Positions 1,724 to 27,859 of a stretch of 64,000 nt of DNA are shown here, one piece after another. The position numbers and the translations under genes were made by a program. The DNA lies in NCBI GenBank assembly GCA_034190875.2, contig CM067343.1, positions 62,672,751 through 62,736,750 on the forward strand, in the 5' to 3' direction. Numbering within the stretch: position 1 is the first letter of the stretch; every line of letters begins with the position of its first letter. Under the pieces are notes generated by a model. That model had not been told where the DNA came from and did no database searches. It saw nothing but the letters and a program-made list of their open reading frames with translations. The DNA is from Urechis unicinctus (taxonomy: Eukaryota > Annelida > Polychaeta > Xenopneusta > Urechidae).

Positions 1724-4700
1724 ATGGCGGCCAGACATCCGCACAACGAACTGGGTCCACTCCAGCCAACAGACGCTGGTCTCCGCTTCGGATGGGATGA
1801 CCACATCGAGTGTCTCAACACCAGCGCCATACTGGATCTGGGTCGTCAGCTGAGCATTGTGAGTCCCGAGAGAGATTATACGGAACTCGCCTCCAGACTG
1901 GGATATTCTCATAATGACATCCAGTTGATTGATCTCGAAGCAGCTCAAGCACCATACCAAAGAGGAGGATCGGGATATCGCTTGCTGCTAAAATGGGCCG
2001 AGAAGTCAGAGTCAAAGTTGATGGTATTACGGAACGAACTGCGCGATATGGGTCGCATAGACTTGCTCCATCGACTCTACGACATCATGAAGAGTAAGTG
2101 CTTTGGAGTAATGCTTACTGTTAAAGTCGCATCAAGTTTGTTAAAATATCTACCTTTTGTGATACTAATAACAATTAACCCGATACCTGAGTCTTATTCC
2201 TATCTATCCTATGTCCAATACGAGCATATTTGTACCTGTCAAGCCTTCATCATGACACCCCCCCCCCCCACACACACACACACAACCAGTCATCTGGTAA
2301 CAGGGAAATACCCTTATCATGGCGAGTACATTGAAATAACCCTGTCAACTCATGTCTTATCAGAGATGACACATTAGGGGTATCCCTAATGGATATGCAA
2401 AATTTGTTGAAAAAACACATATTGGACAGTAGTTACTCAGCACATAGCCAAATGGTATGTTGTCATCAAATCCAGTAGTTAATCCAAGTCGCTTGAACAA
2501 TTCGTGAGATTATTCTGAAATGACAACGATGTATGTGGGTAGAGTTTTCATTTCACGACCATCGGGTCGTAGTTAGCATTTAAAGGTACGTCTGAATATT
2601 GTAAATGAGGCCTGGGTCTTTGTTAAGTTGACAAGTCGGCTCAAGAAAAAAACTCGTTACGGTTGAAGAGCTACTGATGCTTAAGTGAACACATATCTCT
2701 ACTATGCGACGTCACATAGTTTGTCGAGCTTAAATGAACGGTGCTTCCTTAATCAAAAGAAAAATATAAGTAAACAATCTTGTTGCATCCCATACTCCAA
2801 CCTCACACCAGCAACCTAATAACAAATTTCGGATTCCCTTGAATCGTTTTACTGATAACGTAATAACATGTTAGAACAGCGTTTTAATTGAAATAATGTG
2901 AACCTAAAAGAACGTAGTTGCTGGCTGAATCGTATGGTCGTTGTTTTGGGATCCCAAGCGACTGGTCGTTACGTGCATTGGCACCCAAGTCGATTCATTC
3001 AACGAGCGCGTTCGGCAGTGACCTGTAAAAAATATGTATTCTTATACATGTCACTGTTGTTCGGGGAACACGCTCGTTGAATGAATTGAATTGGGTGCCT
3101 GTGGTTAAGTGCACCTTAAGTTATAGTTCTGGCGTGCTTACTTCCCTGTCGACTCACACTACCACAGAGAAAGTGACGTTACCTCCGTATGCGTTCATGT
3201 CCAATAATGTAGGAGCTTTGGTTTTTAATAAATGAGCTGTTTTACAAAACATCCAGTTTCTATTTTGCTATGCAAAGTTGAAAATATTTTAATCACTTAC
3301 TGAGCAAGATCTTCACCTGTTGTTTGCTGGGAACTGAGAAAGGTATTGTTAGAGAGAGGTGCGAGTTTGTTGGTATTCAACCTATCTACGTTTTATCATA
3401 ACCTACCATCAAATGTGTACCTCAATATCCTTATATATTTATAAGTGTTGTGAATATGATACTTACTGAAGTGCATTACTATGTGTAGACCAACGCGAAT
3501 ATTCGAACTAAAAGTGCGGTCGATGACGAATAGCTAGATAAACGGGCATAAGTGGTGGTGGTGGGGTGGGGGTGTGAGCGGGCTCGTGCTGCCGTGTGGT
3601 ACTGGTCGAAGTGGGGCGGGGAAGAGGCAGAGAATGGGGTGGGGGTGGGTTGTGGCGGGCTCGTGCTACCGTGTGGTACTGGTAGGAGCGAGAGGAATCG
3701 GAATTTGTAACAATTATGTTCTCCATCCTTTGTTCGATTTATCAAGTGCTTAAACTATTTCTCTTGGGCCATCGATTTTGCCTACAAGAATATGCTTAGT
3801 TGAAAACTTAAGCAGTATGATATAAGGCTTATGAACTCATATGCTTTTAAGTATAAGCAGTATGATATAAGGCTTATGAGCTCATCTGCTTTTAAGTATA
3901 AGCAGTATGATATAAGGCTTGTGAACTTATCTGCTTTTAAGTATGAGCAGTATGATATAAGGCTTATGAACTTGTCTACTTTTAAGTATAAGCAGTATGA
4001 TATAAGGCTTATGAACTCATCTGCTTTTAAGTAAAAGCAGTATGATATAAGGCTTATGAACTCCTCTGCTTTTAAGTATAAGCAGTATGATATAAGGCTT
4101 ATGAACTCATCTGCTTTTAAGTATAAACAGTATGATAAAAGGCTTATGAACTCATCCCTGAATATTGTATTTTCACTTGGCTTATGTCAATATTGCTTTG
4201 GCGAAGAAGTACTTGTGGTACTGGCCTTCTCTCAATGAACTGAAATTCCGTTCTATGCATTGTTAAGCTGGGTGATTGGAACCGGTTTCGCTTTTTAGGT
4301 ATTTTACTACTTGTGATTATTCCCTTGGAAGCTAAGCGTCATGGTTAATCCCAGCGGTGAGAATCCCTCAAACCTATGGCATCCGGTCTGCATCTCCTCT
4401 TTAATCGGGTGGATATTTCGATAAACGTCACCGCTCTTTGTTGGTTTATTTTGATAAAGAAGCTGAAATTGTTTACGTCATGCATAACATAAATGAACTG
4501 GGGATTCTAATGTTAAGCGAATACAACACAGAATGGTAATTCAAATGTTGACTCGGCGGTATCAACTGATAGGGAGCAAACCATTACCTGTGGGATCTGC
4601 TGCTGAGTCGTATGGCTTAGTTTTGTAACTCGATCCTAAAATGTTAGGACAGGGTTAACTTGGTCTCTAACATTGACGGGCATGCACAGGGTGTGATGAA

Positions 4701-27600: not shown

Positions 27601-27859
27601 ACTTCTCCAACAGCGCGAGTCCCGGTCCGCCCTTTTGTTGGGTGTATGAGCATTCTGTCTCGATCAGCTGCACATCATGAACCGAAAAGCCCAAGATGGA
27701 GGCGAGCTCGATGTAGTCCCGACCATGACTGATGATACAGAGGCTGAGGCCTAAGTCGAGAAGAGCCCCAGGGGGCAATACACTGATATGATCGTCCCAT
27801 GAAAAGAAGAAATCCTCTTCGTGAGGTTGGTGAGGACCTAGATCGAATCGCCCCGCCAT
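21673..27859 (-). CDS. Death domain / RBD-like / SH2 adaptor, paralog 3
   Basis: Six exons on the minus strand: 27859-27502, 24567-24359, 24197-24171, 23104-22559, 22316-22219, 21868-21673; 477 codons plus stop. Exons 2 and 3 are 209 and 27 nt, exactly as in paralog 1, and exon 5 is 98 nt as in paralog 2. The Death domain spans about residues 15-118 (FSWDDHISVLPPGALLDLG, ELASILGFSVHDVQLIETE, GLALLEKWRDKP). The RBD-like fold spans 120-198 (YITVVLYEEL, LLVRGHVTLADLL, SMGLE) and closes with GQQVNVVRR from the microexon. The linker of 182 residues has VLKDSGYDDDDV and FALEDEELPVLP. SH2 spans 381-477, with DGAYILWKW (Trp for the FLVR arginine), FRASSVADLIDYYRDQPLPG and the C-terminus DETSC. It lies inverted relative to paralogs 1 and 2, on the far side of MGAT5. 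Confidence 0.84.
22386..22527. repeat. (CA)n/(CACG)n compound microsatellite
   Basis: CA repeat with a central block of ACGC tetramers. It lies in intron 4 of paralog 3, about 30 nt downstream of its donor (minus strand), so translation past the donor gives a false CVCV peptide. Confidence 0.95.
23216..23545. repeat. 78-bp minisatellite, about 4 copies
   Basis: Units of 78 bp with cores ATCAACACTCTCCCATCA and AATCAACCCTAGCCCGCC. They are nearly identical, so recent. Located in intron 3 of paralog 3; open frames across it are due to the period being a multiple of three. Confidence 0.9.
23546..24062. repeat. 36/37-bp minisatellite, about 13 copies
   Basis: Units with core CAACCCATCCACGTCAACAC and a CTCTCCCATGTGACAGT or CTCTCGTCCGTGACAGT tail. 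It shares the ATCAACACTCTCCCAT core with the adjacent 78-bp array, so the two probably arose from one ancestor. Confidence 0.9.
25212..25556. repeat. 45-bp minisatellite, about 7 copies
   Basis: Units with cores CACACGACAAAAGCTAATAA and GACACAGTCTCATAATAC. Intron 1 of paralog 3. Confidence 0.92.
25665..26013. repeat. Near-perfect 175-bp tandem duplication
   Basis: 25665-25839 recurs immediately as 25840-26013. The only difference noticed is AAAGGAAGAAG against AAAGAAGAAG. A recent duplication in intron 1 of paralog 3. Confidence 0.92.
26471..26514. repeat. Third copy of the hairpin-arm motif
   Basis: AATTCATTTTACGAGCGCG and TTCGGTAGTGTTC match the left arm of the hairpin at 2980-3099. Located in intron 1 of paralog 3. 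Confidence 0.55.

Follow-up and report, generated by a model that had tools for sequence, protein, structure and literature searches.

A gene family of Urechis unicinctus predicted to join Death, RBD-like and SH2 domains in one protein

Results

Gene models and exon plan

In a 64,000-nt stretch of the Urechis unicinctus genome (contig CM067343.1, positions 62,672,751-62,736,750; hereafter the window, to which all coordinates refer unless another contig position is given), three genes, named g1, g2 and g3, were rebuilt from the sequence alone. The models place them in one gene family, predicted to encode a Death domain, an RBD-like domain and an SH2 domain in this order and in one reading frame. 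An earlier note on this DNA had proposed an adaptor family of this composition. The domain order and the single family stood, and a whole-protein Pfam scan of the three proteins listed no enzyme family; the weak part is the identity of the RBD.

Each gene has six exons and five introns with the shared phases 1-0-0-0-2 and a single stop codon at the end, and the proteins are exactly 806 (g1), 441 (g2) and 477 (g3) amino acids in length. The exon plan, phases and lengths given in the earlier note were reproduced exactly on rebuilding. The splice acceptor is AG in 15 of 15 cases and the donor is GT in 14 of 15, the exception being a GC donor (gcaagt) of g1 exon 4, which was sited by comparison with the homologous g2 and g3. 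A mini-exon of 27 nt (g1 and g3) or 39 nt (g2) forms exon 3. The g2 gene is compact, spanning 2.2 kb in total with introns of 104-303 bases. The C-termini of all three proteins share E-[ST]-S-C, which presumably resembles a C-terminal PDZ ligand. The exons are as follows.

1724..2093, plus strand: g1 exon 1, predicted Death domain (Pfam Death 26.9 bits, cut-off 22.6; model with six helices)
5395..5603, plus strand: g1 exon 2, RBD-like domain (Pfam RBD E 0.012, below cut-off; model pLDDT 75.6)
5863..5889, plus strand: g1 exon 3, 27-nt mini-exon, end of the RBD-like domain (gene model)
6016..7527, plus strand: g1 exon 4, low-complexity Ser/Thr/acidic linker with GC donor (open for 504 codons; 30-bp tandem repeats)
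8011..8123, plus strand: g1 exon 5, first half of predicted SH2 with FLVR-type Arg, YILR (gene model, profile alignment, Pfam)
8342..8531, plus strand: g1 exon 6, second half of SH2, C-terminal EETSC (gene model, Pfam, PDB search)
9748..10096, plus strand: g2 exon 1, predicted Death domain (Pfam Death 29.5 bits)
10400..10614, plus strand: g2 exon 2, RBD-like domain (only paralogue similarity; no RBD match alone)
10719..10757, plus strand: g2 exon 3, 39-nt mini-exon (gene model)
10975..11400, plus strand: g2 exon 4, linker (gene model, open frame)
11505..11602, plus strand: g2 exon 5, first half of SH2, Trp at the FLVR Arg position (gene model, profile alignment)
11715..11913, plus strand: g2 exon 6, second half of SH2, C-terminal QESSC (gene model, Pfam)
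27502..27859, minus strand: g3 exon 1, predicted Death domain (Pfam Death 21.6 bits, 1 bit below cut-off; 51% identical to g1)
24359..24567, minus strand: g3 exon 2, RBD-like domain (paralogue similarity; no RBD match; UBL_USP40, ubiquitin-like, E 0.21)
24171..24197, minus strand: g3 exon 3, 27-nt mini-exon (gene model)
22559..23104, minus strand: g3 exon 4, linker (gene model, open frame)
22219..22316, minus strand: g3 exon 5, first half of SH2, Trp at the FLVR Arg position (gene model, profile alignment)
21673..21868, minus strand: g3 exon 6, second half of SH2, C-terminal DETSC (gene model, Pfam)

The introns of g1 contain inverted repeats (2980-3099 and 7906-7975) with 34-nt arms, 91% complementary, and spacers of 52 and 2 nt, which resemble foldback elements of the miniature inverted-repeat transposable element (MITE) type.

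Conservation of the domains and the linker

In pairwise local alignments among g1, g2 and g3, the Death, RBD-like and SH2 regions score 13.7-50.5 standard deviations above 300 shuffles, and the similarity of these regions is not chance. The three domains are 29-51% identical among the paralogues. Their proportions of non-synonymous (pN) and synonymous (pS) differences are 0.32-0.49 and 0.74-0.93, respectively, pS being near or at saturation. The linkers encoded by exon 4 show no similarity, scoring just 0.1-0.2 standard deviations above shuffles. Yet in the frame linking the two halves, exon 4 stays open for 504 (g1), 142 (g2) and 182 (g3) codons, while the other frames of that strand have 4-27 stops each; the composition-based chance of its being open is 8e-10, 5e-3 and 1e-4, respectively. 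Thus, between the conserved folded parts, the linker may have been retained solely for spacing, as a stretch rich in Ser, Thr, Asp and Glu.

A 30-bp tandem repeat inside g1 exon 4 (6806-7196, with a main row of about 11 copies) explains part of the longer g1 linker. A D-S-G-Y motif, followed by acidic or Ser residues, is common to the otherwise unconserved linkers of g1 (residue 245) and g3 (residue 219); as a guess, it is a candidate tyrosine-phosphorylation or degron site.

Death domain

The predicted Death domain is confirmed for the family by sequence profiles and a structure model. In whole-protein scans with Pfam Death (PF00531, curated cut-off 22.6 bits), g1 and g2 pass with 26.9 and 29.5 bits, while g3, at 21.6 bits, lies one bit below. 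A PDB search with the Death regions of g1, g2 and g3 as one profile found NRADD (E 4e-5), ankyrin-3 (4e-4) and RIPK1 (1e-3), with IRAK3 far lower (0.099). The top row of that search, 'CAP REPEAT' (E 3e-10), was set aside; it is the sum of five weak 24-residue matches, none of which passes alone. The structure model of g1 exon 1 has six helices in the six-helix death fold, and the first 28 rows of its VIA comparison are all death-domain structures. Chains of the Pelle-Tube and MyD88-IRAK complexes rank first (Z 12.2 and 12.1), tied within 1 Z with p75NTR (11.6). The earlier note had proposed a MyD88/Pelle-type link; the likeness to IRAK, Pelle, Tube and MyD88 seen here is one of fold ranking and is shared with p75NTR. 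The sequence is nearer to NRADD, ankyrin and RIPK1, and, unlike MyD88, IRAK and Pelle, g1, g2 and g3 have no Pfam match to a TIR or kinase domain in the whole-protein scan.

SH2 domain

The SH2 label is likewise confirmed for the family by profile comparison, best for g1. With Pfam SH2 (PF00017, curated cut-off 21 bits), the whole g1 protein scores 22.2 bits and g2 13.6, and g3 is unlisted; with the regions alone, g1 scores 26.3 bits, above the cut-off, and g2 (16.8) and g3 (12.4) fall below it. In the latter scan DUF7145 outscores the SH2 models for g3, and DUF7063 and DUF7145 come near the SH2 score for g2. The corresponding SH2 profile, built from the regions of all three genes, matched PLC-gamma1 in the PDB with E 9e-9, which sums two SH2 domains (0.014 and 0.03 singly), as well as SHP-2 (7e-5) and the GRB14 SH2 (0.011). 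Single regions gave PLC-gamma1 (4e-4) as the best match of g1 and SHP-2 (0.1) as that of g3. No domain of g3 passes its own Pfam cut-off by itself. By these scores, the support for Death and SH2 comes from g1, and for Death from g2 as well, while g3 leans on its similarity to both.

In an alignment with the C-terminal SH2 of PLC-gamma1, the FLVR position (betaB5) of g1 is Arg, whereas g2 and g3 have Trp there; Trp is also found in g2b, a further copy described below. A betaD His, which is presumably part of the phosphotyrosine pocket, is the same in g1, g2 and g3 and aligns with the His of PLC-gamma1. These residues support phosphotyrosine binding as a prediction for g1 only, and the binding that the earlier note had ascribed to the whole family is retained for that member and not for g2, g2b and g3. 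According to a passage of PMC7530234, the human proteins RIN2, TYK2 and SH2D5 also have SH2 domains without the FLVR Arg, and SH2D5 has Trp there, as do g2, g2b and g3.

RBD-like domain

The RBD-like label of the middle domain is supported but weak, resting on profile scores and a structure model. Against the curated cut-off of 25.7 bits for Pfam RBD (PF02196, RAF-type), only g1 is listed in the whole-protein scan (11.8 bits). The g1 region alone reaches 16.0 bits (E 0.012), still below the cut-off, and RBD is its sole Pfam match. The regions of g2, g2b and g3 alone have no Pfam RBD match; g3 gives UBL_USP40 (E 0.21) and g2 gives DUF3071 (E 0.14). The model of g1 exon 2 has a predicted local distance difference test score (pLDDT) of 75.6, and the first 16 VIA rows are RAF RBDs or RAF designs, at low Z. 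A PDB search with the profile of the RBD regions (A3) found no RBD and three unrelated matches (E 0.15-1.2), which counts against the label. The four regions align with RAF1 by hhalign over 25 columns with a probability of 12.6%, and local scores against RAF1 are equalled by shuffles in 18 (g1), 197 (g2), 361 (g2b) and 57 (g3) of 1,000 cases.

The Ras contacts of RAF1 are taken here to be R59, R67, K84, K87 and R89. At these five positions, basic residues number one in g1, two in g2 and one in g2b, while g3 has none in a local alignment, in which two positions are unaligned, or one in a global alignment; the residue matching R89 is Arg in both g1 and g2. Thus, Ras binding lacks support, and because the RAF contact residues are mostly lost, the RBD-like domain is more likely to serve in structure or protein binding than to sense Ras-GTP. 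The earlier note's Raf-RBD-like fold is favoured by the model ranking and the sole Pfam match of g1, but stays below threshold and at low Z; its Ras-GTP binding found no support, g1 being basic at just one contact of five. The check by profile hidden Markov models and structure prediction that the same note proposed gave, when run, the Death fold and by Pfam the g1 SH2, an RBD below cut-off, and for g3 nothing over cut-off.

Further copies

Some 125-142 kb beyond the window, the minus strand carries g2b, an intact copy of g2 with the same six exons (435 amino acids). Beside it lie a broken g2 copy (g2c) and two broken g1 pieces. No Death exon was found in the two g1 pieces by tblastn, one of them being readable only as far as 2,500 N that separate it from g2b. 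Apparently, the g1-g2 block was copied twice in inverted orientation (C2:62861611-62879115, on the same contig as the window). In the 264 kb compared, the cluster totals at least seven copies or pieces, four intact (g1, g2, g3 and g2b) and three broken. A comparison of g2 with g2b over 434 codons gives 53.5 non-synonymous and 20.5 synonymous changes, a ratio of non-synonymous to synonymous rates (dN/dS) of 0.75 (Death 0.92, RBD-like 0.51, SH2 0.56, linker 1.18); these changes are too few for a claim of strong recent constraint.

Across the genome assembly (1.19 Gb, 926 contigs), there are 17 matches to the Death domain among the best candidates scored, of which three are in this cluster (g3 and g2c are not among them). 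For eight of the 14 loci outside the cluster, stretches of about 3.2 kb (one with 834 N) were compared with g1, g2 and g3 by tblastn, with no match at E <= 0.01.

Other features of the window

At 12-16 kb on the plus strand, two exon-like open reading frames (13464-13781 and 15241-15585) match glycosyltransferase family 18 (PF15024, MGAT5-type) with 26.6 and 22.7 bits, both below the cut-off of 28. A large gene or genes at 31-43 kb on the minus strand contain a cadherin repeat (42173-42832), an EGF exon of 1068 amino acids with 25 EGF matches (36317-39520) and a secretin-type seven-transmembrane piece (31860-32243), and look like an EGF-rich adhesion G-protein-coupled receptor. Together with the introns and the Death domains, this receptor-like gene and the EGF arrays are signs of animal DNA. 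The minus strand also has a reverse transcriptase fragment from a retroelement (51597-52322; PF00078, 4e-26) and an exon of an MFS_2 sugar-transporter-like gene (60273-60590; PF13347, E 2e-9).

Discussion

Proposed function and alternatives

A reading with roughly even chances of being right is that these paralogous single genes encode cytoplasmic adaptors, of which g1 would link a tyrosine-kinase event to a Death-domain pathway while the paralogues lacking the Arg would act independently of phosphotyrosine. Each protein would consist of an N-terminal Death domain, an RBD-like domain of the ubiquitin fold, a probably unstructured linker bearing Ser, Thr and Tyr, and a C-terminal SH2 domain, and would presumably reside in the cytoplasm. 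Most likely, g1 would dock by its SH2 domain on an activated receptor or kinase that bears phosphotyrosine, and its Death domain would then recruit or nucleate Death-domain partners, carrying the tyrosine-kinase event into a Death-domain pathway. Having lost the FLVR Arg, g2, g2b and g3 most likely retain the SH2 domain as a surface that works independently of phosphotyrosine, and these proteins may take part in the same Death assemblies as partners, brakes or decoys. More tentatively, the family may be a natural tyrosine-kinase-to-Death switch, in which g1 reads phosphotyrosine and seeds Death assemblies and the phosphotyrosine-blind g2, g2b and g3 set the threshold. According to a passage of PMC2575513, an engineered DED-SH2/PTB chimera (Howard et al. 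2003) diverts tyrosine-kinase signals into apoptosis, which makes the g1 mechanism plausible, though it is no test of it.

Some points weigh against the adaptor reading: the FLVR Arg is lost in three of the four intact members, the SH2 domains of g2 and g3 score below the Pfam cut-off, and the gene models are predictions from genomic sequence. The first two favour an alternative, on balance unlikely, in which the architecture is the same and no member reads phosphotyrosine or Ras; the RBD-like and SH2 domains would be structural or protein-binding clamps, and the family would only regulate Death-domain assembly. The FERM and SH2 domains in JAKs are purely structural or protein-binding clamps of this sort. 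The loss of most RAF contact residues agrees with such clamps, as do the human SH2 domains of RIN2, TYK2 and SH2D5 (PMC7530234, in the passage cited above). However, g1 passes the SH2 cut-off and retains both the FLVR Arg and the betaD His.

It is improbable that the RBD-like domain binds a Ras-family GTPase, so that the proteins would connect Death signalling with Ras-GTP and phosphotyrosine, as the earlier note held. The sole Pfam match of the g1 region, the top rank of RAF RBD structures for the exon-2 model and the Arg at the R89 position in g1 and g2 speak for it, whereas 16.0 bits against a cut-off of 25.7 and the scarcity of basic residues at the presumed contacts (one, two, one and none or one of five in g1, g2, g2b and g3) speak against it. 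Wrong joining of two separate genes, Death-RBD and SH2, would fit gene models predicted from genomic sequence, the GC donor at one g1 junction and the AATAAA and ATTAAA in the g2 exon 3-4 intron, but is very improbable and was rejected for g1, g2, g3 and g2b on the presence of the full set of six exons, with order and frame unchanged, in four intact copies, the short span and introns of g2, and an exon 4 open in the joining frame only in g1, g2 and g3. Least probable is a decaying pseudogene family without function, which three broken copies or pieces out of seven and the g2-g2b dN/dS of 0.75 would suit, and which was rejected on the intact frames of g1, g2, g3 and g2b and the conservation of their domains across near-saturated synonymous divergence.

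Relation to known proteins

GRB7, GRB10 and GRB14, whose domain order is RA-PH-BPS-SH2, are similar in that a Ras-associating domain of the ubiquitin fold precedes a C-terminal SH2, and the GRB14 SH2 is among the family-profile PDB matches (E 0.011). They differ in having PH and BPS and no Death domain, while Pfam lists no PH or RA in g1, g2 and g3. BCAP, BANK1 and Dof are adaptors that also tie an innate-immune module, TIR, to tyrosine-kinase signalling in one protein, but they have TIR-like, DBB and ankyrin domains and supply phosphotyrosines instead of an SH2 domain. SH2D5, TYK2 and RIN2 are not known to have a Death domain. The engineered DED-SH2 and DED-PTB chimeras combine a death-fold domain and a phosphotyrosine reader in one protein, but are artificial and use DED, not Death; the passage of PMC2575513 that describes them makes no mention of an RBD-like domain.

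Searches with g3 and with alignment A1 found no homologue at E <= 1 among 5.8 billion proteins, of which each search scored the 7,999 or 8,000 candidates with the most words in common; the eukaryote share is uncertain, and this is no evidence of absence elsewhere. A PDB search with the whole g3 gave only one chance match (E 0.98). No Death-SH2 or Death-RBD-SH2 protein came up in searches of an open-licence literature library, which lacks most subscription papers, and this does not mean absence in other animals. Some animal TRADD-N (NCOA6 clade) proteins have SH2 among their C-terminal domains, as a passage of PMC8195603 states, so a related kind of domain shuffling is already known; shuffling around death-fold adaptors is also known in amphioxus (PMC2575513, likewise in a passage). 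The present family appears to be a new form of this known animal event, domain shuffling around death-fold adaptors.

Death-domain and phosphotyrosine signalling usually meet via several proteins. A bridge made of one protein, in a family of clustered genes that vary at the very position responsible for reading phosphotyrosine, would offer a ready-made natural experiment on the rewiring of pathways by adaptors. If true, a switch of the g1 type is the natural counterpart of the engineered DED-SH2 chimeras, and the family would offer studies of invertebrate immunity or cell death a small system that can be tested.
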